Assembly: GCA_035556555.1 (NCBI GenBank)
Contig: DATMES010000069.1
Coordinates: 1-46,286, forward strand
Origin: Frankiaceae bacterium
GTDB taxonomy: Bacteria > Actinomycetota > Actinomycetes > BP-191
DNA length: 46,286 bases
Reading direction: 5' to 3'
Numbering within the stretch: position 1 is the first letter of the stretch; the number at the start of each line of letters is the position of its first letter. Positions 18,252-32,030 of this stretch are shown here, in pieces. The notes under the pieces are model-generated. The model saw nothing but the letters and a program-made list of their open reading frames with translations. It was not told the origin of the DNA and did not search any database. The translations under genes were made by a program, and so were the position numbers.

Positions 18252-18278
18252 CCTTTTCTCCACATCTGGGCGCCCGTT

Positions 18279-18295
18279 GGGACCTTCGGCCCTAG
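18279..18295. promoter_or_regulatory. GGGACCTTCGGCCC box with CTAG
   Basis: GGGAC-CTTC-GGCCC followed by TAG matches the GGGAC-N4-GTCCC layout of DevR/NarL-type sites with one change in the right arm. It lies 70 bp before the first surface-protein gene. A similar arrangement GGAC-N7-GTCCTAG is at 19060-19077 before the next gene, and GGGACGAAAGTCCG is before the S8 protease. Confidence 0.4.
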
Positions 18296-18364
18296 AGGAC
18301 CAGGGTCGTCCGGCTCGCCCGGGGGAGTGGCGAGGAGTCCGGTACTTCCGACGATCAAGTAGTC

Positions 18365-18829
18365 GTGGGGACGGCAGGCAGGACACTCGCGCACATCGGT
18401 GCGACGGCGCTCGTACGCGCCGGTGTCGTGCTTGCCGGGTTCACCGTGACCGCAGGGGTCGCGGGCGTGGCGTGGGGCGCACAGGACGTCGCGCTCTCGA
18501 TGGCGAGGCCCGAGGGGGGAGACCTCATCACCATCGAGGGCAGCATCAGCGGCGTCGTCGCCGGGGCACCCAGCGCACCGTTGCGCCTCACGCTTCGCAA
18601 CCCGGGGGACGTCGCGAAGACGATCACCCGCGTACGGGCCGACAGCACCGGCGTCGACGCCGGTGCCGCGACCTGCGACGCCGCGATGCTCACCGTGGGT
18701 GAGTGGACGGGGACCGTCGAGGTCCCCGCGCACGGCGCCGCGGGCGTCACGCTGCCCGTCGCCATCGCCGCCGAGCTGCCCGCGGAGTGCGTCACCGCGA
18801 CGTGGGGTCTGGTCTACACGGCGCACTGA
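18365..18829 (+). CDS. exported surface protein, first of a five-gene cluster
   Basis: This 154-residue protein has a signal sequence (ALVRAGVVLAGFTVTAGVAGVAWG) and a single beta-rich domain. It has the pattern ITIEGSISGVVAGAPSAPLRLTLRNPGD, two cysteines (ATCDAAMLTV and PAECVTATW) and an alternating hydrophobic profile. The same pattern (SG..G..PG...L.L...NP, one Cys before a strand and one near the end) recurs in the products at 19678 and 20238, so these are divergent paralogs. GTG 18365 is the likely start; the ribosome binding site is poor. Confidence 0.75.
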   Translation: MGTAGRTLAHIGATALVRAGVVLAGFTVTAGVAGVAWGAQDVALSMARPEGGDLITIEGSISGVVAGAPSAPLRLTLRNPGDVAKTITRVRADSTGVDAGAATCDAAMLTVGEWTGTVEVPAHGAAGVTLPVAIAAELPAECVTATWGLVYTAH

Positions 18830-19162
18830 CGCTGCCCCGGGCGGGTCAGCCCGCGTGCCGCAATGTCCTGGTTCGCCCTGCTTCGGGATGACTACGACGC
18901 ACTAGTACCAGCGGGCCACCGGCGTTGTCCGGTCGGTCCCGGACTACGGACCGTTCTCCCGATTACCGCGCGTGTCCGCGCCGGGCAGAGTTCACCCCAG
19001 CACGACGGAACAAGCGCCGGCCCCCTGGCCAGGGACCTCCGGTGGCGACCTCGGGCAAAGGACTTGATCGGTCCTAGCCACCCCGTCGGCGTCCAGAAGG
19101 GCGCTAGCCGAAAGGTGGCTTCCGCCCAGACCACGTCGCTCACGGAGAACCAGGGAGTTCCT
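18830..19162 (+). promoter_or_regulatory. 333-bp leader region with palindromes and a hairpin
   Basis: No gene is seen here. CGGTCC/GGACCG (18934-18939 and 18948-18953) form a short palindrome. GGAC-N7-GTCC at 19060-19074 is followed by CTAG. A 7-bp perfect inverted repeat AGCCACC/GGTGGCT (19076-19082 and 19114-19120) encloses a smaller CGGC/GCCG stem. The structured stretch ends 42 bp before ATG 19163, which has an AGGGAG ribosome binding site. The region is long for this genome and could be an RNA leader or a multi-site promoter. Confidence 0.4.
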
Positions 19163-19627
19163 ATGCGCAAGTACAGCAAGCGGACGACCATCGTCGCCGC
19201 ATCCGCCGCCACCGTCATGGCCGCCTCCGGCATCGCCTACGCGTGGTACAGCGCCAACGTCGCGGGCACCGGCACCGGCTCCGCCACGCCGGCCGACCCC
19301 ACCGTCGCGGACGTCACGTTCTCGGCCTCGTCGATCTCGGGCCTGCTCCCGGGCGGCGCCGCCGTCACCACGACCGTCACGCCGAGCAACCCCAACCCGT
19401 ACTCGGTGCACATCTCCGAGCACACCGTCTCGGTGTCCTCCGCCTCCGGCGGCGACTGCGACGACAGCGAGGCCTCCCTGTCGGGCAGCGGCACCATGGT
19501 CGAGCAGACCATCCCCGCCAACTCGACGGGTACGCCGTTCACCATCGACGTCTCGATGGGTGACGAGGCGTTCAGCCAGGACGACTGCGCCGGCCAGGCG
19601 CTGACCGTCACGTACGCGGCCAGCTAA
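19163..19627 (+). CDS. SipW-type exported surface protein (TasA-like signal)
   Basis: This 154-residue protein starts MRKYSKRTTIVAASAATVMA and continues SGIAYAWYSANVAGTGTGSA. This is the layout of SipW-dependent signal peptides: a basic start, a hydrophobic core ending near A-W-Y/F-S, then a Thr/Gly-rich beginning. The mature domain is beta-rich with SSISGLLPGGAAVTTTVTPSNPNPYSV and two cysteines (GGDCDDSE and DDCAGQAL). Proteins of this kind assemble into fibres or adhesins on Gram-positive surfaces. No SipW-like peptidase or sortase is in the window. AGGGAG precedes the start. Confidence 0.8.
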   Translation: MRKYSKRTTIVAASAATVMAASGIAYAWYSANVAGTGTGSATPADPTVADVTFSASSISGLLPGGAAVTTTVTPSNPNPYSVHISEHTVSVSSASGGDCDDSEASLSGSGTMVEQTIPANSTGTPFTIDVSMGDEAFSQDDCAGQALTVTYAAS

Positions 19628-19677
19628 GTCCCCGCACACCCGTAGCGACGACGTAACCGACGAGAGGAGGAGCAGCC

Positions 19678-20241
19678 ATGATCGAGCAGACGCGCCAGCG
19701 GCTGATGGTCCTGCTGCTCCTCTTCTTCGTCGGCGTCGCGGGTGCCGTGACGTACGCCGCCACCAACGAGTCGCCGAGGAAGGCGACGCCGGCGGCGGAC
19801 GGCCAGCAGACCGGCACCGGCACCGTCGTCGGCGGGAACGGGCCGCAGTCGCCCAGCCCGCAGCCGGGCGGTCCCGGCAAGGGCAACCCCCAGGGCCCGA
19901 ACGGCGTCTTCTACATCTCCGGCCAGGTGTCGGGGCTGATCCCGGGGGCGCCCAGCACGCTGCCCCTGACGATCGAGAACCCCAACCCGTGGCCGATCCA
20001 GGTCCTGACGCTGGACACCGGCGTCAGCGCCCCCGCCGGCTCGCCATGCCCCGCGAGCACGCTCAACGTCGGGGAGTACACGTACACGAACGGCGCCAAG
20101 ATCTCCGCGCCCGCCCGTGGCACGGTCGTCGTCAACGTCCCCGTCGAGCTGGCCGACTCGGTCACGCAGGACCAGAGCGGCTGCCCGGGGTCGAGTTTCC
20201 CGCTGACGTTCACGGGCACGGCGGTGAAGACGACCCGATGA
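19678..20241 (+). CDS. membrane-anchored surface protein with Pro/Gly linker
   Basis: This 187-residue protein has an N-terminal membrane helix (RLMVLLLLFFVGVAGAVTYA, residues 8-27) that is probably not cleaved. A Pro/Gly/Gln linker (about 40-75) follows, then a beta domain: FYISGQVSGLIPGAPSTLPLTIENPNPWPIQVL, with cysteines in SPCPASTLNV and SGCPGSSFPL. It is the clearest member of the paralogous domain family in this cluster and could anchor the others to the membrane (inference). GAGAGGAGGAG lies just before ATG 19678. Confidence 0.8.
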   Translation: MIEQTRQRLMVLLLLFFVGVAGAVTYAATNESPRKATPAADGQQTGTGTVVGGNGPQSPSPQPGGPGKGNPQGPNGVFYISGQVSGLIPGAPSTLPLTIENPNPWPIQVLTLDTGVSAPAGSPCPASTLNVGEYTYTNGAKISAPARGTVVVNVPVELADSVTQDQSGCPGSSFPLTFTGTAVKTTR

Positions 20242-20711
20242 ACACACTCCTCCGCCGCCTCGCGACTCCCGCCGTTGTCGGGACGGGCCTCGCCGTCGTC
20301 CTCGGGGCCGGCGTCGCCAGCGCGTACTTCGGCTCCTCCGTCGCCGCTACCGGCACCGGTACCGCGACCCCCGCGACCCCAGGGCCGCTGGAGTTCGAGG
20401 TCGTCGGCTCGGTGGGCACCGGGCTCTTCCCGGGCGGCCCCGGCGCGGACCTGACGCTCAGCGTCGTCAACCCGTACGACCAGGACATCACCATCGAGTC
20501 GCTGGTCGTGACGGACACGGTGACCGCGGCGCCCGTGTCGTGCGCGAACCCCGCGCTGACGATCTCGGCCACGGACCTGCCGATGACGGTCGACGCCGAC
20601 AGCGTCGGTAACCTCGTCCTCAGCGGCGTCGTGACCATGGGCCTCAGCGCCGACAGCGCCTGCCAGGGCGCGACGTTCAGCATCCCCCTGAAGGTGACGG
20701 GCCGGCTGTGA
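20238..20711 (+). CDS. SipW-type exported surface protein
   Basis: This 157-residue protein starts MNTLLRRLATPAVVGTGLAV and continues into GAGVASAYFGSSVAATGTGTA, again a SipW-type signal (S-A-Y-F at its end). The beta domain has TGLFPGGPGADLTLSVVNPYDQDITIESL and two cysteines (PVSCANPALTI, DSACQGATFSIPL). It is similar in order and length to the product at 19163. The ATG overlaps the previous stop (ATGA), and its own stop overlaps the next start, so the cluster is translated as a unit. Confidence 0.82.
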   Translation: MNTLLRRLATPAVVGTGLAVVLGAGVASAYFGSSVAATGTGTATPATPGPLEFEVVGSVGTGLFPGGPGADLTLSVVNPYDQDITIESLVVTDTVTAAPVSCANPALTISATDLPMTVDADSVGNLVLSGVVTMGLSADSACQGATFSIPLKVTGRL

Positions 20712-21931
20712 TGAACCGCACGAGCAAGCGCAGCGCCGTCGTCGCGATCGCGGCGGCAGCCGCCGTTCTCGTCGGCCTGCCGGCCGTCGCGTACTTCACG
20801 CTGACCTCCAACGAGGACACCGCCGCCGTCACCGCGAACGCCCTCGGCACGCCCGCCACGTCGGGCCTCACCATCTCCGCCAGCAGCGTGTCGTTCACCG
20901 TCGCCGCGCCGGCCACCGGGCCCGCGCCGACGGCGTACCAGGTCAATCGCACCGCTCCCGCGCCAGCCGTGCCGAACGTGTGCTCCGTCCCCGCCGCGGG
21001 TGGTACGTGCACCGACCCGAGCCCCGTGCCGGGCCAGACCAACACGTATGCCGTCTTCGCCAGGCTCGGCACCAGCTGGGCCTCGCTGACTCCCGCGACC
21101 GTCACGGCAGCCGTCCCCTCGAACACCGTGACCGTGTCCGCCCCTGACCTGCTCGCCGCCGACGACTCCGGCGCGTCGAACACCGACGACATCACCAACG
21201 ACACGACGCCCCGCTTCACCGGCACCGCGACCGCTGGCGCCACCGTCAACCTCTACGACGGCGCCAACCCGACCGCGATCGGCACGCAGGTGCTGGGTGC
21301 CGGGGTGACCTCGTACTCGATCCAGGTCAGCGCGCTGACCGGCGGCGCGCACTCGATCACGGCGGTCGCCACCGTCGGCGCGAACAACTCGGCCCCGTCG
21401 AGCGCGCTCGCCGTCACCATCGACACGACGGCACCGACTGCCTCGGACATCCAGACGGGCACCGGCACTACGGCGGGCAAGATCGACGCCAACGACGAGG
21501 TCCGCTTCACGTTCAGCGAGGCCGTGGACCCGACCAGCGTCTCGACCGGCTGGACAGGCACGTCGGTGGGCGTCACGGTGACGTTCCGCAACAGCAACTC
21601 CAGCGTCGCCAGCCAGCGTATCCAGACGATCGTGGTCACCACGGGCGGCGCCGCGGTCAACCTCGTCGGTCAGGTCGGCTGGAACCAGTCGTACATGAGC
21701 GGCGCCAACAACGGCACTTCGACCGCGACGGGCACCATGACGCTCAGCGCCGACAAGAAGACCGTGACCATCAAGCTCGCCGGCTCCCCGAGCGGTGGGA
21801 ACACCACGGCGATCACCGCGAGCTCGACGCTCAACTGGACGCCGGTCGCCGGTCCGAAGGACGTGGCGGGCAACTCCCTCACCAGCCTGACCCCGGTCAC
21901 CGAGCAGGGCACAGCCGACATCGACTTCTAG
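20711..21931 (+). CDS. exported Ig-like repeat protein with SipW-type signal
   Basis: This 406-residue protein has a SipW-like signal (VLVGLPAVAYFTLTSNED). An N-terminal domain (about 35-145) carries the only two cysteines (NVCSVPAAGGTCTD). A bacterial Ig-like domain follows (DDITNDTTPRFTGTATAGAT, about 155-240), then a C-terminal SbsA/Big-type Ig-like domain (DANDEVRFTFSEAVDPTS, about 260-400) ending KDVAGNSLTSLTPV. It is the largest product of the cluster and is likely an adhesin or fibre tip. ATG 20711 shares its A with the upstream TGA; GTG 20708 is equally placed. Confidence 0.8.
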   Translation: MNRTSKRSAVVAIAAAAAVLVGLPAVAYFTLTSNEDTAAVTANALGTPATSGLTISASSVSFTVAAPATGPAPTAYQVNRTAPAPAVPNVCSVPAAGGTCTDPSPVPGQTNTYAVFARLGTSWASLTPATVTAAVPSNTVTVSAPDLLAADDSGASNTDDITNDTTPRFTGTATAGATVNLYDGANPTAIGTQVLGAGVTSYSIQVSALTGGAHSITAVATVGANNSAPSSALAVTIDTTAPTASDIQTGTGTTAGKIDANDEVRFTFSEAVDPTSVSTGWTGTSVGVTVTFRNSNSSVASQRIQTIVVTTGGAAVNLVGQVGWNQSYMSGANNGTSTATGTMTLSADKKTVTIKLAGSPSGGNTTAITASSTLNWTPVAGPKDVAGNSLTSLTPVTEQGTADIDF

Positions 21932-21948
21932 CCCCCGCAGCCCAGCAG

Positions 21949-21977
21949 CACCCGCGCGCGCACCAACGCCGCGGGTG
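21949..21977 (+). terminator. hairpin after the surface-protein cluster
   Basis: CACCCGCG (21949-21956) and CGCGGGTG (21970-21977) form a perfect 8-bp stem with a 13-nt loop, followed by TTGTTG. It lies 18 bp after the last stop codon of the operon. Confidence 0.6.
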
Positions 21978-22015
21978 TTGTTGCGTCCGGGGCTCCGTGG
22001 CCGCATCCTGACGGC

Positions 22016-22177
22016 GTGGACACCAACAAGTACGCGGTCACGCTCGACGCCCTCGAGAACAGCGCGCACGTCCCGCTCGACGACCAGGTCACCGAGCAAG
22101 CCGAACCGCCCGCGCCCGACGTCGTCAACGAGGAGCGCCTCGCGCAGCAGCGGCTCGTGAACCAGTACCTGCCCTAG
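22016..22177 (+). CDS. small acidic protein, 53 residues
   Basis: The reading frame from GTG 22016 to TAG 22177 codes VDTNKYAVTLDALENSAHVP followed by a Glu/Pro-rich part and ends RLAQQRLVNQYLP. Almost every third position is G or C, and the composition is that of a normal soluble protein, so I believe it is coded. No family is recognised. There is no ribosome binding site. Its stop codon lies inside the left arm of the inverted-repeat element that begins at 22174. Confidence 0.55.
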   Translation: MDTNKYAVTLDALENSAHVPLDDQVTEQAEPPAPDVVNEERLAQQRLVNQYLP

Positions 22178-22361
22178 GAGGGCTTGGCGAAACGCCGCGC
22201 ATGATCACGTGCGGTGACGGTGGTCGGGTCGGCTCCGCAACCGGGTTGCGGGCCGTGCGGGGAAAAGCGCAGATCGCACCCCGATCAGAGCGAAGGCGCT
22301 CACCTGGGACGCGGCCGGTCACGCTCGGCCACCATCGGGCCGTTTCGCCAAGCGCTACTAG
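22174..22361. repeat. 188-bp element with 21-bp inverted ends
   Basis: The left end (22174-22194) and the inverted right end (22341-22361) share 19 of 21 bases, including a perfect 13-bp core GCTTGGCGAAACG. Both ends begin CTAG and supply the TAG stop codons of the convergent genes at 22016 and 22358. A second element with a similar left end (CTAGGAGGG...GCG.AAC.CCG) occurs at 29533-29700, again between convergent genes. No gene is seen inside. It may be a MITE-like element or a bidirectional terminator. Confidence 0.6.
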
Positions 22362-23434
22362 CTGCCGAAGATCGCCGACAGCTCGTACGGCGCCACGACC
22401 TCGAGCTGGTCGTACGTGCACTGGTGCGGCTCCTTGTCGGGCCGCCAGCGGAGGAAGTGCGCGGTGTGCCGGAAGCGCGTGCCCTCCATGTGCTCGTACG
22501 TCACCTCCAGCACCCGCTCGGCCCGCAGCGGCTCCCAGGAGAGGTCCTTCTTGGCGTTCCAGCGGGAGACCGCGCCGGGCATCCGGCCGGTGTCGTCGGT
22601 CTGCGCCGCCCACGACGCCCACGGGTGACCGTCGAGGGCGTTGTCGCGCAGCGGCGCCAGCTCGTCGACCAGCTCCTTGCGCCGCGCCATCGTGAACGAC
22701 GCCGCCACCCCGACGTGGTGCAGCGTGCCTGTGTCGTCGTAGAGCCCGAGGAGCAGACTCCCCACGATCGGGCCCGTCTTGTGCCAGCGGAAGCCGGCCA
22801 GCACGACGTCGGCCGTGCGCGAGTGCTTCACCTTGAGCATGACGCGTTCGTCCTCGCGGTACGCCAGGTCGAGCGGCTTCGCGACGACGCCGTCGAGCCC
22901 TGCGCCCTCGAAGCGCGAGAACCAGTCCTGCGCCGTCCCCTCGTCGCGGGTGACGGGCGTGAGGTGGACAGGGGGAGTGACGCCCTTCAGCGCCTCCTCG
23001 AGTCGCGTGCGGCGCTCCGCGAGCGGCGTCCTCCGCAGGTCCTCGTCGCCGAGCGCCAGCAGGTCGAACGCCACGAACGACGCCGGGGTCTCCTTGGCGA
23101 GGCGGTTGACCCGCGACGCGGCGGGATGGACGCGCTGCTGCAACGCCTCGAAGTCCAGGCCCGTCGGCGTCGCGATGACGATCTCGCCGTCGACGACGCA
23201 GCAGTCAGGAAGCTGCGTACGGAGCGCCTCGGCGACCTCGGGGAAGTAGCGGGTGAGCGGGCGCTCGTTGCGCGAGCCGAGCTCCACCTCGTCGCCGTCG
23301 CGGAACGCGATGCAGCGGAACCCGTCCCACTTGGGCTCGTAGAGGAAGCCCGCGGCGTGTGCGGACTGCGGCGGCAGGGTCTTCGTCGCCTTCGCGAGCA
23401 TCGGCTTGACCGGCGGCATGACAGGGAGATCCAC
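22358..23434 (-). CDS. ligC: ATP-dependent DNA ligase LigC
   Basis: This 358-residue protein matches mycobacterial LigC closely in order and length: DLPVMPPVKPMLAK at the start, adenylated lysine K35 in EPKWDGFR, GSRNERPLTRYFPE, VDGEIVIA, and GLDFEALQQRVHP. Motif IV GAGLDGVVAKP and motif V MLKVKH precede a C-terminal OB fold ending with RFRHTAHFLRWRPDK. LigC seals nicks in backup repair and end joining and usually sits beside the PolD1 polymerase. Here the partner is at 17235-18251, on the other side of the surface-protein cluster. The start is GTG 23434. Confidence 0.94.
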   Translation of the reverse strand: MDLPVMPPVKPMLAKATKTLPPQSAHAAGFLYEPKWDGFRCIAFRDGDEVELGSRNERPLTRYFPEVAEALRTQLPDCCVVDGEIVIATPTGLDFEALQQRVHPAASRVNRLAKETPASFVAFDLLALGDEDLRRTPLAERRTRLEEALKGVTPPVHLTPVTRDEGTAQDWFSRFEGAGLDGVVAKPLDLAYREDERVMLKVKHSRTADVVLAGFRWHKTGPIVGSLLLGLYDDTGTLHHVGVAASFTMARRKELVDELAPLRDNALDGHPWASWAAQTDDTGRMPGAVSRWNAKKDLSWEPLRAERVLEVTYEHMEGTRFRHTAHFLRWRPDKEPHQCTYDQLEVVAPYELSAIFGS

Positions 23435-23718
23435 ACGCCCATCCTGCCTGACATCTCCCTTACCGCACGATCAACTCGCGCCGAGTCCGCAGCCGGATTC
23501 ACACCTGGAAGACCCCAAGTTGCACCTCGCCAGGCGTCCTCGGCTCCCGCCGAGAGATCTCGCGCTGAGCCAGTGATCGTCTATGCCACAGCGGTGCGGG
23601 TACGATTCGACCAATGTCCACCCAACCGGGGCGTATCGCCGTGCCAGCGCCGAGCCCCGAATGGTCCCAAGGCTGCCTCAAACCCGCGTGGGGCGGTGAC
23701 CGGTAGGAAGGTGACGAG
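23435..23718. other. left flank of the lower-GC island
   Basis: This 284-bp stretch holds no recognisable gene apart from a 30-codon frame (23614-23706). That frame starts 7 nt after TACGAT (23601-23606) and would code MSTQPGRIAVPAPSPEWSQG then 10 more residues. It may be a leaderless upstream peptide or chance. GC content falls from here rightwards. Confidence 0.35.
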
Positions 23719-25326
23719 GTGAAGCCTGACCTTCGCGATGAAGAGATTATCGCCGAGCTTCGCGCTACCTCGATGGCCGGGCGTGATGCATTCGAAGTCG
23801 CGATCGCTAAAACGTTCTCGGCGATGGGGGCGAAAGCGGTTCGGCACGGAGGAACTGGCGAGGCCGACGTAATTGTCGAATTGCCATACGAGAATAATAT
23901 TATCCGGGTCGCGATCGAAGCGAAGGGGGGCAGGCGCCCCCTTCGCGCGAATGCCGCAGGCATATCTGAGGCGGGTATTCACTCTACCAATGCGGGAGCG
24001 CAATTAGCCGTAATCGTGGCGCGCGAGTTTCAGGGCGCACGGGCGACGTCTCCAAACCCGTCGGACTCGACTATAATCGCGGGTTGCCGCGCCACTAACG
24101 GTGCCGTCACCATTGCAACCGTCGATGTGCTCGTTGAACTCCTTCAGCGAGTGCGGCGAGAGCAGCATTCTCTTCGTGAGGTCTATGAGATTCTCAGGGT
24201 TAACGAAACCCCGGCGGAGAAGATTGATCGAATCAAGGCGATGAAGGCGCCTTCAATGTTCCCCCTCTCGTCCCTGCTCGATGATATATGGGAAGAGCAG
24301 GAGGATGCAGGTGGCGTAGCATATTATGGAAGAGTCAAGCGCCTCCGTTGGCCAGATCTCGATTACAATAAGTTCACTCAACTGCTTCATGCGTTACAAA
24401 ATATGATTGGGCATGATCTGATTGAGATCGACGCGACGGAAAAAGTCATTGTACTAAAGCAGGACCCCGAATTGCTTAAGCAGAGACTTCAGCGTGTGAT
24501 GTCAGCAACGCGTGCGGGCGTTTTGAGTCTGGGGCACATCCATCTTAGTATTCGAGCACGGGCGCGTTCCCGAGGGCCCCTTATCGCCGTGTCAACTGCG
24601 GCGATGCTGCTAATCCCAGGCATCACAGCTATCGACGTGTTACCCCCACCTACAGGAACTCACCCGTCGCAGGTATCCTCGCGACACGTTGCGAGCCATC
24701 AGGCGCCACGTTCAGATAGTTACTCAGGGGTAGTGCATCGATCTAAAATGTCGGCAGCCGGTGCTACGGTGGTGGAGCGGCCACAGTATAATCGGGCAGT
24801 TGATCGTGCCTGGGATGGGAGGTTCTCTGGTACGTACGTGAGCCAATGTGTCAACAGCGATTCAGCGAGGTCTGAAGTTGGGCCGCCAACACAGTCGCAC
24901 GTTTCGTGTGATTTGCGCGGACGGAGTTCCGTCTGTGCCGATACCGTGGTTACTCGGAAGCGGCAATGCGCGGTTAGATTTTCTGGCGTTACGGTAACCT
25001 TCGATTCAGTCACGACAACTGCCTTAGGGCGTAAGGTCGCGGTGTGTGATACGGAACCCCATACATACCGTGTTTATATTCGACCTGTTATACAGTACAG
25101 CGAACGCGAAGAGTTCGTCCAGGTTATGCGAGGGACCGATGCCGGTGTTGAGGTGCAGGGTAGCGGCTTGGGGTCAGCGGTTGACCTAGGTAATATCAGT
25201 GCGATGGGCTATACGGCTGGCGGGACACTTCACGCAACTGTCACGCTAAATTTTACTTGTGGCATAGAACTCGGGCATCCGCAGCTATTCTTTGGTACGA
25301 TTCGTTTTAGGCCCCACGAGCGCTGA
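23719..25326 (+). CDS. PD-(D/E)XK-like nuclease domain fused to membrane segment and Cys-rich outer domain
   Basis: This 535-residue protein lies in DNA with many A/T third positions, unlike its neighbours, so it was probably acquired. Residues 20-105 look like a restriction-endonuclease fold: E26, D50 (GTGEADVIVEL) and E67-x-K69 (VAIEAKGG), then AQLAVIVAREF. A helical region follows (130-270), one hydrophobic segment (about 285-305, GPLIAVSTAAMLLIPGITAI) and a beta-rich C-terminal part with six cysteines (377, 397, 406, 417, 443, 514). A nuclease tied to an exported domain is odd; fusion of two genes is possible, since ATG 24499 would start the second half with a signal-like sequence. GTG 23719 has AGGAAGG upstream. 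Confidence 0.7.
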   Translation: MKPDLRDEEIIAELRATSMAGRDAFEVAIAKTFSAMGAKAVRHGGTGEADVIVELPYENNIIRVAIEAKGGRRPLRANAAGISEAGIHSTNAGAQLAVIVAREFQGARATSPNPSDSTIIAGCRATNGAVTIATVDVLVELLQRVRREQHSLREVYEILRVNETPAEKIDRIKAMKAPSMFPLSSLLDDIWEEQEDAGGVAYYGRVKRLRWPDLDYNKFTQLLHALQNMIGHDLIEIDATEKVIVLKQDPELLKQRLQRVMSATRAGVLSLGHIHLSIRARARSRGPLIAVSTAAMLLIPGITAIDVLPPPTGTHPSQVSSRHVASHQAPRSDSYSGVVHRSKMSAAGATVVERPQYNRAVDRAWDGRFSGTYVSQCVNSDSARSEVGPPTQSHVSCDLRGRSSVCADTVVTRKRQCAVRFSGVTVTFDSVTTTALGRKVAVCDTEPHTYRVYIRPVIQYSEREEFVQVMRGTDAGVEVQGSGLGSAVDLGNISAMGYTAGGTLHATVTLNFTCGIELGHPQLFFGTIRFRPHER

Positions 25327-25347
25327 ATCAGCACGAGAACAAGGGCC

Positions 25348-25379
25348 CTACACCGTCGGCTAGTTCGGTGACGGTGTAG
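25348..25379 (+). terminator. hairpin terminator of the island gene
   Basis: CTACACCGTC (25348-25357) and GACGGTGTAG (25370-25379) form a perfect 10-bp stem with a 12-nt loop, 21 bp after the stop codon. There is no T run. Confidence 0.65.
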
Positions 25380-25429
25380 ACTACGGATTTCCGCCTGCCT
25401 TCTCGGCGCGCGCGACGACGATCTCACCA

Positions 25430-25531
25430 TCAACGGCCGCTGACGGGGCTGTGACCGGCCGACGCGGGCGTCGGGGCGGCGAGCGTGGCGGCGGTCACGG
25501 CGACCGCGGCCAGCACTGTCTTACGGAGCAT
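25430..25531 (-). pseudogene. truncated or frameshifted exported protein (signal peptide only)
   Basis: A strong ribosome binding site (GGAGGGG) precedes ATG 25531. The product is a full signal peptide, MLRKTVLAAVAVTAATLAAP then TPASA, followed by only eight residues before TGA at 25430. Shifting by one base continues the frame for about 18 codons with VDGEIVVARAEKAGG to a TAG at 25381. The gene therefore appears broken, at the point where GC content drops into the island. It may have been cut by the island's arrival. Confidence 0.5.
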
Positions 25532-25708
25532 GGTGAGTTCCCCTCCCTCAGTGGCACGGGCGTGCCGGTACCTACACGGGAAGGGATGGCGTTCCTTACA
25601 CGCGTGCAGGCCCGCGCACCGGCCGCACCGAACCTTGCAGGCACCCCGGGAGTCTCTGAAGGGCTGTCGGGAATGCCCCGGCCGACGCGACCCCGAGGAG
25701 ACACACCG

Positions 25709-25879
25709 ATGAAGCGCACCCTGCACCTCCGTACCGAGGTGCTCAGCGAGCTCACGACCGACGAGCTGCAGAACGTCGCTGGCGGCGACGGCACCACGTA
25801 CGCCTGCTCGCGCTACGAGTGCCCGACGCTCGACCACTGCGTTCCGACGCTGCCGCTGAACGTCTGCGTCACCAAGTAG
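25709..25879 (+). CDS. RiPP-precursor-like peptide 1, 56 residues
   Basis: The leader MKRTLHLRTEVLSELTTDEL then QNVAGG ends in a double glycine. The core of 30 residues has four cysteines (YACSRYECP, HCVP, NVCVTK) and the motif LPLNVC that recurs in precursors 5 and 6. The LxLR.E.L..LT..EL..VAGG layout is that of class I lanthipeptide-type leaders recognised by RRE-containing enzymes and cut after GG (family knowledge). The gene stands alone, with GAGGAG upstream, and is followed by a strong bidirectional hairpin. No modification enzyme is nearby. Confidence 0.8.
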   Translation: MKRTLHLRTEVLSELTTDELQNVAGGDGTTYACSRYECPTLDHCVPTLPLNVCVTK

Positions 25880-25888
25880 CACGCGAAC

Positions 25889-25928
25889 GAACGGCCCGCG
25901 CCCCGCAAGCAGGGGACGCGGGCCGTTC
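25889..25928. terminator. bidirectional terminator hairpin
   Basis: GAACGGCCCGCG (25889-25900) and CGCGGGCCGTTC (25917-25928) pair perfectly over 12 bp; the loop itself can pair CCCC with GGGG. It lies between the convergent genes ending at 25879 and 25939. Confidence 0.75.
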
Positions 25929-25938
25929 GACGTCCCGG

Positions 25939-28020
25939 TTACGCCAAGACGAGCGGCGGCGCGCTGCCGTCGAGCGTGAACCCGAACGAGTACGTGCTCG
26001 GCGCGGCGCCGTCGACGCGCAGGTACCACGTGCCGGCCCGGTCGAGCGTCGCGGTGACGGACGGCGAGCTGAGGTACGCCAGCGAGCACGACGAGCCCGC
26101 GAACGCCACCCCGTCGGGCCCGACGAGCGTGAAGCAGGCGTTGCCGCCGCTGTGCTCGAGCTGGAACGTGTCCCCGGCCGCGCCGGAGAAGGCGAACCAG
26201 TCGTACGTGTCGTCCCCGCCGTAGCGGATGCCGTCGTAGACCCAGCCAGGCATCAGGACCGGTGCCCCGGCGGGCGTCTCGGGGGCGTCGGCGCCGCTGC
26301 TCGCGTCGTCGTGCACGAACACGGAGGCGAGTGGCGGGCCGCTCGTCGCGCTTTCGGGGCCCCACAGCGCGGTGCGCAGTGCCCGGTCGCGGGCGAACCA
26401 CTCGGTCGTCTCCGGCCGCGGCGCGGGGCCGCTGCCGGCGAGCAGCCTCGTGGACGCCGCGTCGAGCGCGTCCTGGTCGACGAGGCCGTACCCCTGCTCG
26501 GCGAGCGTCACCGGGGAGGCCGGCATGGGGTCGTTGCCCGCGCGCGGGACGGGCATGGCCGCGTGCAGCAGGTGGTCGAGCACCGCCGTACGGTCCGCGG
26601 CCGAGCCGGCGCGGCGGCCGGCGAGGAGCACGTGGGCGAAGTGCCCGGCGAGGTTCGCCGGGTACGCGGTGACGTCGGTCGCCGCGGGCATCGCGGTCAG
26701 CGAGTCGTGCGCGGGTGCGAACGTCGTCGCCGCGACCGCGTCCACCGGCACGCAGTGCGCGGGCGCGGCGGACGGCCGCATGCCTACGCGGGTGACCCAC
26801 GCGGGCCCGGCGTAGGCGTCGGTGTGCGTGCTGCACGCCGAAGGGACGAGGGCGGTGAAGACGCGGTTCGCCGGAACGATGACCGGCTTGCCGCTCGCCG
26901 CGGCCTCGCGGGTGGCCCACTCGATGCCGTCGCGCGTCCCTGTCGGGCTGGTCGTGATGAACGGCGCGTTCGCGGCGAACCCTGCGCTCATGACGACCGC
27001 GTCGATCCACGGCTGCCTGGCGACCCAGCGCACCGCTTCGGGGTACGTCGTCACGTCGGCCTCCACCGCGACGACGAGGACGTTCCCGTCGGCCGCACCG
27101 GTGCCGGAGCCCGCCGCGAGGCCGGCGCTGGCGCTGCCGTACCCCGTGTCGTCGATGACCGGACGGTCCGGCAGCGACGGCTCGTCGGCGGTCGGGCGGC
27201 TGAAGCTGATGCCACCGACGACGCGCGTGCCGGGGAACGTGTAGAGGCGCTCGTCGAACGTGTCCGACACGGGGTCGTACGTGCTGCGCGCCAGCGTGTT
27301 CAGCGTCGGCGCGTCGGCCGCGGCGGCGGTGGCGTAGTCGGGCGCGCCGAGCGACAGCGCGACCGGCGAGGCGCTCGCGGGGAAGCCGGACAGCCAGCCG
27401 CTCGGGTGCGCGGTGAGCGCCGGGGCGCGGAGGAACTCGTGGTACGGGTTGACGCCGGTGTCGACGACCGCGACGACGACGTGCTCGCCCGTGGTCGTCG
27501 CGGGGCCGACCGGCGGCACGACGAGCGAGGGGAGCGGCGCCACGGGCGAAGTGGACAGCAGGCCCACCGGCGCGGGGCTCGGCGCCGGCTCGCCGACGCC
27601 CACGGAGAACCGGTACGCGTCGGGCTGGAGCGCGCTGACCTGGACGTAGTACGTCCCCGCCGCCGTCGCGACGGCGGTGGCCAGCGAGGTGGACTCGGCG
27701 GCGACGCCGCAGGAGTACGCGAGCTCGGCGCCGGCGGCGTTCGCCAGGCGGACGCAGGAGAACGCGCCCGAGCCGCGCGCCTCGAGCGTCGCGCCGGCCG
27801 GAGCGGAGAACGCGTACCAGTCGGCCTTGTCGAGGACGTAGCCGTCGACGGTGCCCGAGTAGACACGGCCCGGCTCGACGCGGAACGTCGGCGTCGGGAC
27901 GCCGGGCGCGTCGCGGCCGGTGCCGGCGTCGTTCTGCGGCAGCGGCGCCGCCGACGCGGGCGATGCGACGGTGAGCGGCAGCAGTGCCGCGAGCAGGACG
28001 GAACAGAGAGCGGAGCGCAC
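25939..28020 (-). CDS. exported degenerate subtilase with pre-peptidase domains
   Basis: This 693-residue protein has a signal peptide (about 1-24), an N-terminal PPC-like beta domain (about 46-142, VYSGTVDGYVLDKADWYAFS), an S8-like central region (about 178-480) and a second PPC-like domain (about 600-690, YDWFAFSGAAGDTFQLEHSG). The catalytic Asp is present (D187, VVAVVDTGVNPYHEF). The GHGT..AG histidine motif reads GYGSASAG (H to Y294), and no GTS motif is found where TDVTAYPANLAG stands. It is therefore probably not a protease. GTG 28020 has GGGGGGAA upstream. Its role, perhaps binding peptides or other exported proteins, is unknown. Confidence 0.8.
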   Translation of the reverse strand: MRSALCSVLLAALLPLTVASPASAAPLPQNDAGTGRDAPGVPTPTFRVEPGRVYSGTVDGYVLDKADWYAFSAPAGATLEARGSGAFSCVRLANAAGAELAYSCGVAAESTSLATAVATAAGTYYVQVSALQPDAYRFSVGVGEPAPSPAPVGLLSTSPVAPLPSLVVPPVGPATTTGEHVVVAVVDTGVNPYHEFLRAPALTAHPSGWLSGFPASASPVALSLGAPDYATAAAADAPTLNTLARSTYDPVSDTFDERLYTFPGTRVVGGISFSRPTADEPSLPDRPVIDDTGYGSASAGLAAGSGTGAADGNVLVVAVEADVTTYPEAVRWVARQPWIDAVVMSAGFAANAPFITTSPTGTRDGIEWATREAAASGKPVIVPANRVFTALVPSACSTHTDAYAGPAWVTRVGMRPSAAPAHCVPVDAVAATTFAPAHDSLTAMPAATDVTAYPANLAGHFAHVLLAGRRAGSAADRTAVLDHLLHAAMPVPRAGNDPMPASPVTLAEQGYGLVDQDALDAASTRLLAGSGPAPRPETTEWFARDRALRTALWGPESATSGPPLASVFVHDDASSGADAPETPAGAPVLMPGWVYDGIRYGGDDTYDWFAFSGAAGDTFQLEHSGGNACFTLVGPDGVAFAGSSCSLAYLSSPSVTATLDRAGTWYLRVDGAAPSTYSFGFTLDGSAPPLVLA

Positions 28021-28113
28021 GAGTGGATTCCCCCCACACGGTAGGACGCGGCGCGGCGCGCCGCGCGTGAGGTGACGAGGTTTCGACGTCGGCGCCGCGC
28101 GGACCTTCCGGCG

Positions 28114-28464
28114 TCAGCGGCAGCGCAGCGTGATGCGCGCGCGGTCCTTCCAGTACTCGTGCCCGCGGAGCAGCCCGACCGTGATCGAGAACGTCCCGCG
28201 CACGTTCCTCGGGCAGTAGAGGCGGATCCGGAACGGCATCCGCACCGGCCGCTCAGGGTCGGTCCACGACGAGCCATCCATCTGGATCGGGTACAGCGGG
28301 TTGCCGTGCTCGTCACGGTCGTCGCTGCGCCCGAGGACCGTCGGGTACGTCACCGACGTCGCGAGGAAGCGCCCGACCGCGTCGACCGCCCGGCGCGTGA
28401 CCGCGGCGAACCGGTCGCGTGCCGCGACGGGACTTGCCGCGTCGACGCGAACCGCGCAGAGCAT
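28114..28464 (-). CDS. unknown protein, 116 residues
   Basis: I do not recognise this protein. It begins MLCAVRVDAASPVAARDRFA, has no clear signal peptide, and ends RGTFSITVGLLRGHEYWKDR with a few more residues and a final CR. Two cysteines near the C-terminus (LYCPRN and LRCR) flank a strand-rich segment. ATG 28464 is chosen over 28491 because GGAGGGGG lies just upstream. It is divergent from the precursor array and lies between it and the degenerate subtilase, so it may belong to the same locus. Confidence 0.65.
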   Translation of the reverse strand: MLCAVRVDAASPVAARDRFAAVTRRAVDAVGRFLATSVTYPTVLGRSDDRDEHGNPLYPIQMDGSSWTDPERPVRMPFRIRLYCPRNVRGTFSITVGLLRGHEYWKDRARITLRCR

Positions 28465-28534
28465 CGCGTCACCCCCTCCACCGCCGTTCAACGAGCGGTG
28501 CGGCTCCGGGGCACGCCCTCGAGGCGTACGTCGC

Positions 28535-28574
28535 TATCCTCGGGGCATACCCCTCAAGACGGAGGAACCCCTAC
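28535..28574 (+). promoter_or_regulatory. promoter of the precursor array
   Basis: TATCCT (28535-28540) is a likely -10 box, followed by a perfect GGGG-CATA-CCCC palindrome (28542-28553) over the expected start of transcription. GGAGG (28561-28565) is the ribosome binding site for ATG 28575. The palindrome could be an operator. Confidence 0.5.
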
Positions 28575-28790
28575 ATGAAGCGCACGCTCTCCCTCAGGCG
28601 TGAGTCCCTCACGGCGCTGACGACCGACGAGCTGTCGATGCTCGTCGCGGCGGGCGAAGGCGACCCGCAGCCCACCCCGCCGTGGTACGCCCCGACGTCC
28701 CCGGTGAAGGACTGCCTGGCGACGACGCAGAACTCCATGGTCGTCTGCTCCGGCGACTGCATGACCCGCGGCACCACCTGCGCCTGCTGA
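28575..28790 (+). CDS. RiPP-precursor-like peptide 2, 71 residues
   Basis: The leader MKRTLSLRRESLTALTTDEL is followed by SMLVAAGEGD rather than VAGG, so the cleavage site is variant. The core is Pro/Thr-rich (PQPTPPWYAPTSPVK) and ends with five cysteines in DCLATTQ, VVCSGDC and GTTCAC. It is the first gene of a five-gene tandem array transcribed from the promoter at 28535. The next gene starts 24 bp downstream. No homolog with a known product is recalled. Confidence 0.8.
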   Translation: MKRTLSLRRESLTALTTDELSMLVAAGEGDPQPTPPWYAPTSPVKDCLATTQNSMVVCSGDCMTRGTTCAC

Positions 28791-28814
28791 CCCTACGAAA
28801 ACGGAGACCCAGCC

Positions 28815-28988
28815 ATGAAGCGCACCCTGAAGCTCGAGCGCGAGACCGTCACCGACCTCACGACCGAGGAGCTGACCGCCATCGCGGGCGGCATCCCGAC
28901 GTTCGAGGGGCCCGTCTGCTACGTCGTCAACGACACCCAGGCGCGGTGCACGGCGACCATCATCCAGGCGCACTGCAACACGGTCTGA
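28815..28988 (+). CDS. RiPP-precursor-like peptide 3, 57 residues
   Basis: The leader MKRTLKLERETVTDLTTEEL then TAIAGG ends in a canonical double glycine after residue 26. The 31-residue core IPTFEGPVCYVVNDTQARCT and its remainder contain three cysteines (C35, C45, C54) and several Thr. Codon use matches the chromosome, so the array is long resident. It sits 24 bp after peptide 2 and 11 bp before peptide 4. Confidence 0.8.
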   Translation: MKRTLKLERETVTDLTTEELTAIAGGIPTFEGPVCYVVNDTQARCTATIIQAHCNTV

Positions 28989-28999
28989 GAGGCGGCCCC

Positions 29000-29173
29000 G
29001 TGAAGCGCACGCTCTCCCTGAAGCGCGAGGCGCTCGCCTCGCTCACCACCGACGAGCTCGCCGAGGTCCAGGGCGCGGCGATCCCGACGCTGCTCGGGGT
29101 CTGCCAGTGGACCCAGCCGTCGAGCCCCATCAACTGCGTCACCGAGCACACCGTCTGCCTCTGCCGGCAGTAA
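29000..29173 (+). CDS. RiPP-precursor-like peptide 4, 57 residues
   Basis: The leader MKRTLSLKREALASLTTDEL is followed by AEVQGAA, a variant of the usual VAGG. The core IPTLLGVCQWTQPSSPINCV then TEHTVCLCRQ has four cysteines. Start is GTG 29000 with GAGAGG upstream. The last bases of this gene (CTCTGCCGGCAGTAA) are found again at 29349-29365 beyond peptide 5, which marks a tandem duplication. Confidence 0.8.
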   Translation: MKRTLSLKREALASLTTDELAEVQGAAIPTLLGVCQWTQPSSPINCVTEHTVCLCRQ

Positions 29174-29190
29174 CCCTCGAGGAGTCCCTC

Positions 29191-29346
29191 ATGAAGCGCC
29201 TCACCCTGAAGAGCGAGACCCTCAGCGAGCTCACGGCCGACGAGCTCACCGGAGTCGCCGGCGGCGTGCTGCCGACGCTCCCGCTCGACGTCTGCCTCGA
29301 CGAGCTGCTGCACACCAACCGCCCGACCCAGTGCCTCTGCCCGTAG
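29191..29346 (+). CDS. RiPP-precursor-like peptide 5, 51 residues
   Basis: The leader MKRLTLKSETLSELTADELT then GVAGG is one residue shorter than the others at the start. The core VLPTLPLDVCLDELLHTNRP ends TQCLCP and has three cysteines. It is almost identical in its leader to peptide 6, and both cores begin VLPT.PLDVCLD, so the two arose by duplication. CTCGAGGAG lies upstream of ATG 29191. Confidence 0.82.
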   Translation: MKRLTLKSETLSELTADELTGVAGGVLPTLPLDVCLDELLHTNRPTQCLCP

Positions 29347-29348
29347 GA

Positions 29349-29384
29349 CTCTGCCGGCAGTAACCCACCCCTCGAGGAGAACTT
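29349..29384 (+). repeat. duplicated 3' end of peptide 4
   Basis: CTCTGCCGGCAGTAACCC here copies the last codons, stop and spacer of peptide 4 (29158-29175), followed in both places by CTCGAGGAG. This untranslated remnant shows that a unit of about 190 bp, including peptide 5, was duplicated to give peptide 6. Confidence 0.75.
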
Positions 29385-29528
29385 GTGAAGCGCCTCACCC
29401 TCAAGAGCGAGACCCTCGCCGAGCTCACGGCCGACGAGCTCACGGCGGTCGCCGGCGGCGTGCTGCCGACGACCCCGCTCGACGTCTGCCTCGACACCCT
29501 CCAGGCGACGCGCTGCTTCTGCCCGTGA
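29385..29528 (+). CDS. RiPP-precursor-like peptide 6, 47 residues
   Basis: Starting at GTG 29385 (CTCGAGGAG upstream), the leader KRLTLKSETLAELTADELTA ends VAGG. The core VLPTTPLDVCLDTLQATRCF then CP is 22 residues with three cysteines, shorter than its sister peptide 5 by four residues in the middle. It is the last gene of the plus-strand array; the inverted-repeat element at 29533 follows within 5 bp. Confidence 0.82.
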   Translation: MKRLTLKSETLAELTADELTAVAGGVLPTTPLDVCLDTLQATRCFCP

Positions 29529-29532
29529 CCCT

Positions 29533-29700
29533 CTAGGAGGGTTCTGCGCAACCCCGCCCTGGCTGAACCGGGGCGGTCAGACGACGACCGGCGGCGCGGT
29601 CGCCCGCGGGCGACAACCAGCCCGCAGGCTCCCTGCGGCCTTGCCGGATCGCCGCCTGGATCTCGGCTCGCGACGGGCAGGGCTTCGCGGAACCCTCCTA
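29533..29700. repeat. 168-bp inverted-repeat element between convergent precursor genes
   Basis: TAGGAGGGTTC (29534-29544) and GAACCCTCCTA (29690-29700) are perfect inverted ends, with weaker pairing continuing inward (CCCGCCCTG against CGGGCAGGG). The right end supplies the TAG stop of the minus-strand gene at 29698. The left end resembles that of the element at 22174. No gene is seen inside. Confidence 0.55.
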
Positions 29701-29880
29701 ACTCGTCGGCGGGCAGTACAGCGTCGCCGTGAGGATCGTGAAGATCGGCCCGAGGAACTTCGTGTCGAACGGCGGCCCGCAGTGGTCGCCGATCGTGTAG
29801 TCGCCGCCGCGGACCGCGTTGAGGTCGGCGGGGGTGAGCTCGGTCAGCGCCTCACGGCGCAGGTGCAGGCTTCGCTTCAA
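29698..29880 (-). CDS. RiPP-precursor-like peptide 7, 60 residues (TTG start)
   Basis: The leader LKRSLHLRREALTELTPADL then NAVRGG matches the array, and reading the TTG at 29880 as start restores the MKR beginning seen in all the others. AGGATGA lies 7 bp before it. The ATG at 29889 would add three residues with a badly placed ribosome binding site. The core DYTIGDHCGPPFDTKFLGPI and its remainder contain only two cysteines and several Thr. It is on the opposite strand, convergent with peptide 6. Confidence 0.75.
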   Translation of the reverse strand: MKRSLHLRREALTELTPADLNAVRGGDYTIGDHCGPPFDTKFLGPIFTILTATLYCPPTS

Positions 29881-29945
29881 CGGGGTCATCCTTCGATTGG
29901 CCGGCGGCCGCGCGAGAGTGCGCGGCCGCCGGGACGTCGTACGGG

Positions 29946-30167
29946 CTACTTGACGACCGGGCCGACGCACTGCGCGGTGTTGGAGTCGTGGAACAGGTCC
30001 ACCCACACGAGGCAGTCGCGGGTCCAGCAGTCGGTCGGGCAGACCCGGCCGCTGCACTCGAGGTCGACGACCCCGCCGCAGTCACGCCAGTAGTGGTCGG
30101 CGTGGGCGGCGGCGGTCGGCACCGCGAACGCGGCGGTGATCATGGTGGCGGCGAGCAGACGGCGCAT
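29946..30167 (-). CDS. exported six-cysteine peptide A, 73 residues
   Basis: A signal peptide (MRRLLAATMITAAFAVPTAA then AHA) is followed by a mature peptide of about 50 residues. Its conserved pattern is CGGV-D-EC-G-VCP-DC-----CLVW-D-FH----AQCV, shared with the gene at 30263. Six cysteines would give three disulfides. It is not a relative of the MKR-leader peptides but lies directly after one of them on the same strand (65 bp). AGGAG precedes ATG 30167. Function unknown; a defensin-like or inhibitor-like fold is a guess. Confidence 0.75.
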   Translation of the reverse strand: MRRLLAATMITAAFAVPTAAAHADHYWRDCGGVVDLECSGRVCPTDCWTRDCLVWVDLFHDSNTAQCVGPVVK

Positions 30168-30262
30168 GAAGAGCACTCCTGGTGATCGGGGGTGACGGCG
30201 GCGCGGGGCTGCGCCGCCGGGTCGTGCGAAAACGCGGCGAGGGAGCCGCGTCGTTCAGGGGG

Positions 30263-30472
30263 CTACCGGTCGACGCACTGCGCGGTGAACGGGCTGTGGA
30301 ACGGGTCCAGCCAGACCAGGCACTCGCGCGGGAAGCAGTCCATCGGGCAGACGGTGCCGTTGCACTCGTAGTCGAGGACCCCACCGCACGTACGGTCGTA
30401 CGGCTCGGGACCGGCGGAGGCGGGGGCGGCGAACGCGGCGGCGACGGCCGCGGCGGCGAGGAGACGACGCAT
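30263..30472 (-). CDS. exported six-cysteine peptide B, 69 residues
   Basis: This paralog of peptide A has a signal peptide (MRRLLAAAAVAAAFAAPASA) and the mature pattern TCGGVLDYECNGTVCPMDC followed by CLVWLDPFH and TAQCV. All six cysteines and the W and FH positions agree with peptide A, while the rest differs, so selection keeps the fold. GGAGAAA lies upstream of ATG 30472. The two genes are 95 bp apart in the same direction and probably come from a tandem duplication. Confidence 0.75.
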   Translation of the reverse strand: MRRLLAAAAVAAAFAAPASAGPEPYDRTCGGVLDYECNGTVCPMDCFPRECLVWLDPFHSPFTAQCVDR

Positions 30473-30767
30473 AGGGGTTTCTCCGGATTTGTGAGGGGAT
30501 CGCCAGGATAGGGGCGGATCGGCACGACGGCTACAGGCCGAGCGGAGTACGCGCGCGCGGCCGATCGGTGACGTGCCGCGAGACGAGGCCGGGCGGCGTG
30601 GAGACGGATGGCTCTCGCGCGGTCACCGAGCCGGTGGTCATGGAGGTCGCCGCGGGGCGCGGAGTGACGAACGCGAGCCGACCCGCGGAGGCTGCCGGGT
30701 CGCGGGCGTCGTCGACCTGGACGAGGCGTCGGTCAGAGACTGACCGCACCCGCCTTATCGTGGAACG
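30473..30767. other. 295-bp region without a secure gene
   Basis: No gene can be supported. A minus-strand frame ending at 30531 has G/C-rich third positions but low-complexity content. On the plus strand TATCGT (30756-30761), 6 nt before GTG 30768, looks like a leaderless promoter for the next gene. Confidence 0.4.
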
Positions 30768-31454
30768 GTGGCGACCGACGACCCTCCGGCGGAGGACGGG
30801 ACCTACGCCGCGCTGGAGGCCTTCGTCCAGGAGGAGCGGCTGCGGCGCCTCGTCGTGGTCAGGCCCCGGACGGCCGACGAGCGGTCGTACGTCGAGAGCG
30901 TCCTCGTCCACGCGGGACGTCCGGTCCCCGACACGCTCGCGGACTTCGAGGAGCGCGTCGCGGGCTGGTGCGACGACTACCGCGCGCGGTTCGGCCCCTG
31001 CCGGATCGTCGAGATCGACCTCCAGACCTGCGTGTACGTCTTCGACCTCGCTCACGAACGGGTGGTGGTCGCCTACGGCGTCTCGACCTCGCCGGTGGCC
31101 GAGCGCGACAAGAAGGGGATGCGGCAGTACCCCGACGTCAACGTCGGCGTCCGCGCGACGCTGGGCGATCGAGCTTTCGTCGCGGACCGGGGGCACTTCC
31201 TCAGCCACGCCGCCGGCGGCGACCTCGACGTGAACCTCTTTCCGCACCGCCGCGCGCTGAACCAGGGGCGGTCGCCGGAGGGGAGGCAGTTCCGCGCGAT
31301 GGAGCGGTACACGGCGAAGCACCTGGGGACGTTCCACTTCCACCGCGCCGAGTACGACGACCTCAGCTGCATCCCGGCCACCCTCGAGTACGGCGTCCTG
31401 CGAGACGACCGCGACTGGCAGGTGGCGACGTTCGCCAACAAGGGCGACGGCTAG
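30768..31454 (+). CDS. DRGH-motif DNA/RNA non-specific endonuclease-like protein
   Basis: This 228-residue protein has the core of the His-Me finger nuclease family in residues 135-215: VADRGHFLSHAAGG (DRGH), DVNLFPHRRALNQG (metal-binding Asn) and RAMERYTAKHLGTFHF, then PATLEYGVL. The first 130 residues are not recognised. There is no signal peptide, so it either acts in the cytoplasm or is exported in another way, as some toxins are. No obvious immunity gene follows; the next gene codes a coiled-coil protein. The leaderless promoter TATCGT precedes GTG 30768. Confidence 0.75.
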   Translation: MATDDPPAEDGTYAALEAFVQEERLRRLVVVRPRTADERSYVESVLVHAGRPVPDTLADFEERVAGWCDDYRARFGPCRIVEIDLQTCVYVFDLAHERVVVAYGVSTSPVAERDKKGMRQYPDVNVGVRATLGDRAFVADRGHFLSHAAGGDLDVNLFPHRRALNQGRSPEGRQFRAMERYTAKHLGTFHFHRAEYDDLSCIPATLEYGVLRDDRDWQVATFANKGDG

Positions 31455-31508
31455 CGACGGCACGCGTTCAACGTCGCGAAGTGACCGCCCGTGAGCGGTC
31501 CGTGGCCC

Positions 31509-31520
31509 TACGCTGGACGG
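31509..31520 (+). promoter_or_regulatory. leaderless promoter -10 of coiled-coil gene
   Basis: TACGCT (31509-31514) is followed by 6 nt and GTG 31521. No ribosome binding site is present. Confidence 0.45.
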
Positions 31521-32030
31521 GTGAGCATCATCAAGCGGCTGCTGGGCCGCGACGACGACGCGCCGGTGGCCGCGCGACCGGCCACCCCGGCGTACGACCC
31601 GTCGGCGGCCGAGGCGTCGTACGAGCGCCTGCTCGCCGCCGCGATGCTGCTCCGCAACCTCGACGGCGACCTCGAGCGCACCGCGCAGGGCCTCGCGGAG
31701 CGCGAGGAGCGGCTGCGCACCTCGGCCGAGGAGTACGACCGCCTGTCGCAGGCCGCGATCGCGGGCGGGCGGACGATCCAGGCCGAGTCGGCGATCGCGT
31801 CGGCCGAGACGGCGCAGGCCGCCCTGGACGCGCTCGCGCCGCGGGTCGCCGAGGTCGGCGCCCTGCGCGTGGAGGTCGCGAGTGTGGCGAGCAGGATCGA
31901 GGGGGAGGCGGCGGCGCTGCGTTCGCACATCGACACGCGCGCGCCGCTCGGTGACCCGTCGGCGGCGGTGGCGCGCGCCGAGGACGACGCCGTACGGATG
32001 ACGTCGCTCGCGCGCTCGCTGTCGTTCTAG
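31521..32030 (+). CDS. coiled-coil protein, 169 residues
   Basis: The N-terminus VSIIKRLLGRDDDAP is amphipathic and could bind membrane, as in PspA-like proteins. Nearly all the rest is helical with heptads (LLAAAMLLRNLDGDLERTAQ through RIEGEAAALRSHI). It is soluble and acidic. I would not call it PspA, since the family motifs are not evident. It overlaps by 4 bp the small gene on the opposite strand. Confidence 0.72.
   Translation: MSIIKRLLGRDDDAPVAARPATPAYDPSAAEASYERLLAAAMLLRNLDGDLERTAQGLAEREERLRTSAEEYDRLSQAAIAGGRTIQAESAIASAETAQAALDALAPRVAEVGALRVEVASVASRIEGEAAALRSHIDTRAPLGDPSAAVARAEDDAVRMTSLARSLSF

Follow-up and report, generated by a model that had tools for sequence, protein, structure and literature searches.

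A single gene in the window (the whole stretch of 46,286 nt that was analysed) is predicted, from its sequence and a structural model, to encode a FokI-type PD-(D/E)XK nuclease with intact catalytic residues in residues 1-174. Behind it the sequence points to a membrane segment and, beyond that, to an outer part that contains six cysteines, an assignment that is supported, although less firmly than that of the nuclease. In other proteins this nuclease module seems to be an effector governed by a control module at the N-terminus; the present protein lacks such a control module and appears to carry a C-terminal membrane segment and outer part instead. The explanation that we tentatively prefer, as plausible but somewhat short of probable, is one bitopic inner-membrane protein, a nuclease that is kept away from the chromosome by its membrane tether and activated at the envelope, which would be SNIPE-like without being SNIPE. 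As a candidate role, such a protein may guard the cell surface against incoming DNA.

Table 1 Features of the nuclease gene and its surroundings (window coordinates)
Feature	Position	Strand	Basis or remark
Whole gene, 535 aa, GTG start	23719..25326	+	ORF read from sequence
Shine-Dalgarno-like AGGAAGG	23705..23711	+	7-nt spacer to GTG at 23719; read from sequence
FokI-type PD-(D/E)XK nuclease domain (predicted), residues 1-174	23719..24240	+	sub-cut-off Mrr_cat match, model, FokI fold match, FokI profile match
E26, invariant 11/11	23794..23796	+	alignment
D50, invariant 11/11	23866..23868	+	alignment
E67-A68-K69; position 67 E or D, K69 invariant 11/11	23917..23925	+	alignment
Winged-helix-like domain (tentative), residues 180-263	24256..24507	+	model, fold matches
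Basic run RARARSRG before the membrane segment, residues 279-286	24553..24576	+	sequence
Single membrane segment or signal peptide h-region, residues 287-305	24577..24633	+	hydropathy
Outer part, six Cys, no detected relatives, residues 306-535	24634..25323	+	sequence, searches
Perfect 10-bp inverted repeat CTACACCGTC/GACGGTGTAG, possible terminator, no T run	25348..25379	+	just 3' of stop; read from sequence
Small ORFs sharing a leader	25709-25879, 28575-28790, 29000-29173, 29191-29346, 29385-29528, 29698-29889	+, +, +, +, +, -	shared leader

The gene has a good ribosome-binding site upstream and runs for 535 codons without an internal stop. The sequence-only reading had described it as acquired and as differing in DNA composition and codon use from both sides, and these claims were confirmed: G+C falls to a trough of 0.526 (24000-24749) against about 0.69-0.78 on the flanks, and GC3, which is 0.94-0.97 in four neighbouring ORFs, drops to 0.58 in the N half of the gene and to 0.52 in its C half. 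The mean log-likelihood per codon of the N half was -1.24 under the codon use of the C half and -1.79 under that of the neighbours, and the C half gave -1.37 under the N half and -2.03 under the neighbours, the neighbours' table being built from five 'host' ORFs, one of which (30531-31928) shows an unusual codon pattern and may have been read in the wrong frame. Each half is therefore closer in codon use to the other half than to the neighbours, which suggests a single acquisition of the joined gene, and the foreign codon use common to both halves together with the single open frame indicates that the halves probably arrived together; the bacterium appears to have acquired the gene recently. 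The C half is real coding sequence: it contains zero stops in its own frame and 6-18 in each of the other five, its frame was left open in just 2 of 20,000 first-order Markov simulations, and its three-base periodicity has p = 0.004.

The assignment of the nuclease domain draws on alignment, model and profile. The Pfam family Mrr_cat (PF04471) scores the window protein at 13.9 bits, below the curated cut-off of 21, and the C-terminal part of a close relative, L010, at 22.0 bits, above it. In the alignment with ten relatives, the invariant columns are E26, G37, D50, K69, L138 and L226, so that the E..D..ExK motif taken earlier as the sign of a restriction-like nuclease is borne out, with E or D at position 67; alignment and model together place this motif on an alpha-beta-beta-beta-alpha-beta core (H22-36 E39-43 E51-57 E60-69 H79-91 E96-101). 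The two-sequence AlphaFold model is confident just for the first ~180 residues (ten-residue blocks of 1-174 have pLDDT 54-90), and Foldseek ranked FokI at the top for the nuclease model (E 3.9e-4). With VIA-align 2, the model matched the cleavage part of FokI (399-579) at Z 14.0 (rmsd 3.9, 154 residues), the BspD6I small subunit at Z 13.2 (rmsd 2.9, 149 residues) and HindIII at Z 13.2 (rmsd 4.0, 162 residues); Shedu (8ti9) also matched the fold, but with a Z of 6.5 it scored much lower than FokI. At the sequence level, a profile built from the eleven aligned proteins weakly matched FokI (E 0.0054). In Pfam, no DUF4263, GIY-YIG or DUF4041 was matched by the window protein up to E 10, and searches of NCBIfam, PADLOC, PHROGs and PDB sequences with the whole protein returned nothing beyond one PHROG at E 0.35.

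The closest relative of the nuclease half is a GHKL-nuclease in an Egibacteraceae MAG (37% identity over residues 7-264, E 2.6e-34), and the alignment ends at that relative's own end, just before the extra part of the window protein; a second genome holds a relative at 28% identity. A profile search of 393 genomes of the class (own genome excluded) found five relatives, and one of 66 genomes of the Egibacteraceae relative's class found three besides it, two already known and L044 new. The ten aligned relatives are thus L010-L013, from 12 foreign matches, the five class-genome matches and L044; the eight first-search matches left out were short, with E 9e-4 to 0.01, and three of them (L015-L017) come from one genus, L016 being read as an Mrr_cat-type protein with hydrophobic segments in front. 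With the whole protein as query, 276 genomes of the class of genome G139 gave the known L011 alone, phage records gave no match, and plasmids gave a single weak match, to a restriction endonuclease of Haloferax that shows no membrane segment in a hydropathy scan; the nuclease part of the closest relative had no match among plasmids.

In all ten relatives the nuclease is C-terminal to another module. This is a GHKL ATPase in four (L010, L011, L038 and L039), an EVE domain, which is base-reading, in three (L012, L013 and L044), and some other region in the remaining three (L036, L037 and L040), that of L036 having weak winged-helix matches. A DNA methyltransferase gene directly follows the GHKL-nuclease in three of the four cases (L011, L038 and L039); two of these genes were confirmed by Pfam N6_N4_Mtase and the third (L084 5993-7162) was recognised by eye, and by reading there is no methyltransferase next to L010. 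The adjacency in three of four cases suggests that the module serves restriction-type systems. Across one phylum, the N-terminal partners of this FokI-type nuclease module fall into three classes (GHKL ATPase, EVE and other regions). The two-gene units of GHKL ATPase-nuclease and DNA methyltransferase (L031 5801-9480, L083 4031-7944 and L084 3448-7162) form an apparent restriction-modification family with a FokI/Mrr-type nuclease, and the EVE-nuclease fusions are candidates for modified-base-dependent restriction enzymes.

Is the order of nuclease, membrane segment and outer domain found in other proteins? No hydrophobic segment follows the nuclease in any of the ten relatives, and the window protein is alone among them in having nothing ahead of the nuclease and a membrane segment with 230 residues behind it. 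As a control, we used 30 loci among the best-scoring Mrr_cat matches in 296 genomes of the phylum (117 of which matched), some of them cut by contig ends. Hydrophobic segments preceded the nuclease in six of the 30, and one locus, L070, had a marginal segment (1.66) after the nuclease, inside what looks by eye like a TerD-type domain; the order with a convincing membrane segment was absent from these 30 loci as well as from the ten relatives. L070 (nuclease 413-525, 716 aa in total) and L074 both consist of an Mrr_cat nuclease followed by a C-terminal part of ~190 residues. Among the papers listed by literature searches, no title or abstract opening describes a nuclease of the Mrr or restriction type that is joined to both a membrane segment and an outer domain, and neither do the passages of PMC12904381. 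Since the relatives all have an N-terminal partner and none has a membrane segment after the nuclease, a restriction-type effector would here have lost its partner and gained a segment and an outer domain at its opposite end.

Behind the nuclease, residues 180-263 align to the winged helices of ORC2, MCM and JetABC at Z of about 5, a low-confidence match that may be due to chance; a winged helix may follow the nuclease in the model. The single membrane crossing proposed earlier agrees with our scan, in which residues 287-305 are the sole strongly hydrophobic stretch (mean Kyte-Doolittle 1.94). Because a basic run precedes this segment, the N-terminus may lie inside and the C-terminus outside; the nuclease and the winged helix would then be cytoplasmic, with the outer part on the far side of the membrane. 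Six cysteines fall within the 230 residues after the segment (377, 397, 406, 417, 443 and 514) and one (123) before it, in accordance with the earlier statement that six are outside, their outside placement being suggested by the basic run.

Of the structure predictions proposed for the two halves, that of the outer part gave no confident fold (pLDDT 33 when modelled alone, blocks of 20-27 in the full model). Separate searches, likewise proposed, gave ten relatives for that half and none for the outer half in the collections searched. Exact peptide patterns taken from the one sequence found no relative in viral contigs, and in a GTDB scan they gave 43 hits, none of which was confirmed. The best foreign matches were at E 0.002 over 72 residues in 396 genomes of the phylum, at E 0.0035 in the 66 genomes of the class to which the closest relative belongs, and at E 5 among plasmids; all three were treated as noise, and the rest of the window holds no similar sequence. 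The genome searches comprised 1992 genome visits, including repeats, all within one phylum; given the limited sensitivity of exact patterns and a single phylum, 'orphan' means here that relatives of the outer part were not found in these collections.

These data also bear on a serious rival, namely, a chance fusion in which a stand-alone nuclease fragment was fused in frame with a distinct secreted protein; the apparent membrane segment would be the signal peptide of the latter, RARARSRGPLIAVSTAAMLLIPGITA. The outer part would then be unrelated to the nuclease and may be made from an internal start, for example, ATG 24499 (M261). The join sits where the nuclease homologs end and is absent from all of them, and the basic and hydrophobic runs can also be read as a Sec signal peptide. 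However, all 535 codons lie in one frame without a stop, the foreign codon use common to both halves indicates that the fused gene probably came in as one piece, M261 is not preceded by a strong Shine-Dalgarno sequence, and the collections searched yielded no separate gene for the outer half; on balance, we regard this explanation as doubtful. The sequence-only reading had itself offered a fusion of two genes as the alternative and would have yielded to homologs in which the halves are separate genes: the nuclease half does occur without the outer half in 10 of 10 relatives, but no outer half was found apart from a nuclease in the collections searched. A TGATG stop-start overlap near 24497-24501 was considered as a trace of two former genes and judged to be due to chance because homology to the nuclease extends as far as TGATG in the frame now used.

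The setting of the gene was compared with that in two same-genus genomes. The adjoining ligase gene (22358-23434, minus strand) is 85-86% identical in both, DNA identity ends in both at 23448, 14 bases past the ligase start, and the nuclease gene was found in neither; the ligase is neighboured by a lanthipeptide-like gene in one and by other genes in the other. The differing neighbours and the break in identity indicate a variable site. The nuclease gene is a singleton outside any recognised defence island, and the whole protein matched no PADLOC family, so that the action against phage suggested by the sequence-only reading is a candidate role. Cargo of a mobile element beside a tRNA was considered and rejected: there is no tRNA in the window and no Rfam family in 18000-31000.

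Because the gene stands alone at a variable site and lacks the N-terminal part that 10 of 10 relatives possess, it could also be a decaying remnant of a restriction system: the C-terminal end of a GHKL ATPase-nuclease, left after loss of the ATPase and the methyltransferase, with a junk tail open by chance. The gene nevertheless has a clean start with a Shine-Dalgarno sequence, all catalytic residues are kept, and a tail open by chance is expected at only the frequency seen in the simulations above (2 of 20,000), so that we consider a remnant quite unlikely.

If the preferred reading of a tethered nuclease is correct, what would restrain the enzyme? The FokI cleavage domain works as a dimer and cuts without sequence preference. 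Reading of the locus and scans of selected ORFs revealed no adjoining DNA methyltransferase gene, and a search with a single query methyltransferase gave one weak match in the genome, on another contig (28% over part of its length, E 1.1e-5). With no close cognate methyltransferase in the genome, host DNA is probably unprotected by modification, and some other restraint would be needed; as the ATPase, EVE and methyltransferase partners are absent here, membrane tethering would be the natural one, by analogy with SNIPE. Tethering would keep a weakly specific FokI-like nuclease off the chromosome, probably as a monomer; an event at the envelope, such as the entry of DNA or of a phage protein, would cluster or rearrange the protein, and the nuclease domains would then pair and cut DNA at the membrane. 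In this mechanism, the inferred role of the outer domain is to act as a sensor and to bring the nuclease domains together. A stricter version, a receptor-like single-pass restriction factor in which contact of a disulfide-bonded outer domain with incoming phage or DNA directly activates, by dimerisation, the FokI-type nuclease on the inside, seems to us unlikely. If true, a single chain with an outer sensor and an inner DNA-cutting effector would be a receptor-style counterpart of SNIPE, and restriction-type nuclease modules could be moved from control by an ATPase or by DNA-base reading to control by the envelope.

The comparison with SNIPE (PD-lambda-1) relies on PMC13190303, according to which it is a single-pass membrane protein with its nuclease on the cytoplasmic side, the nuclease is restrained by membrane tethering, and soluble SNIPE cuts host DNA. 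The hydrophobic segment and basic run of the window protein agree with such a placement, here predicted from sequence. However, SNIPE combines a GIY-YIG nuclease with DUF4041 and has its membrane segment at the N-terminus, in contrast to the FokI-type nuclease, the segment behind it and the ~230 residues beyond that segment in the window protein. A C-terminal E-D-ExK nuclease is shared with the paraMORC3-type GHKL ATPase-nucleases (Iyer et al. 2008, PMC2292703), but the GHKL ATPase and methyltransferase are absent from the window locus: the related nuclease domain is present (37% over 7-264), the protein begins at the nuclease, and Pfam gives no HATPase match. The architecture of the GHKL relatives can be read as that of paraMORC3 itself. 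In the GHKL-Shedu protein VcSduA, a GHKL ATPase is combined with a PD-(D/E)XK nuclease and anti-phage activity was shown (PMC12137116); its nuclease is DUF4263, whereas the window protein and its relatives match Mrr_cat or FokI. The FokI cleavage domain and the BspD6I subunits share the fold of residues 1-174 and the catalytic motif, but the window protein has no FokI-like recognition domains and has a membrane segment. Finally, actinobacterial membrane-anchored Mrr_cat proteins (for example, L016, L075, L078 and L082) also carry an Mrr-type nuclease on an anchor, although with the hydrophobic segments ahead of the nuclease and no outer domain behind.

Downstream of the gene, the six leader-sharing small ORFs (window 25709-29889) each combine a leader like KRTLxLxxExLxxLTxDEL..GG with a short core that contains Cys and are probable lanthipeptide-type RiPP precursors; one of them comes near NCBIfam lant_leader_L1a (20.5 bits, cut-off 22), and the same locus in a sister genome carries related leaders. 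Such precursor genes just downstream make this a neighbourhood of exported products, which could fit a membrane nuclease with a job other than phage defence, such as processing transformation DNA or cutting the DNA of competitors. The architecture alone does not name the target, nothing specific favours this job, and the relatives of the nuclease occupy restriction-type contexts; we consider it very improbable. On the other side of the gene, window 18863-21931 encodes a series of small exported proteins, SipW/TasA-like by eye, whose N-termini resemble signal peptides; the final one has a bacterial Ig-like domain (Big_13). Between the small ORFs, 25939-28020 on the minus strand encodes a subtilase-like protein with two PPC-domain stretches and a Peptidase_S8 match below the cut-off.
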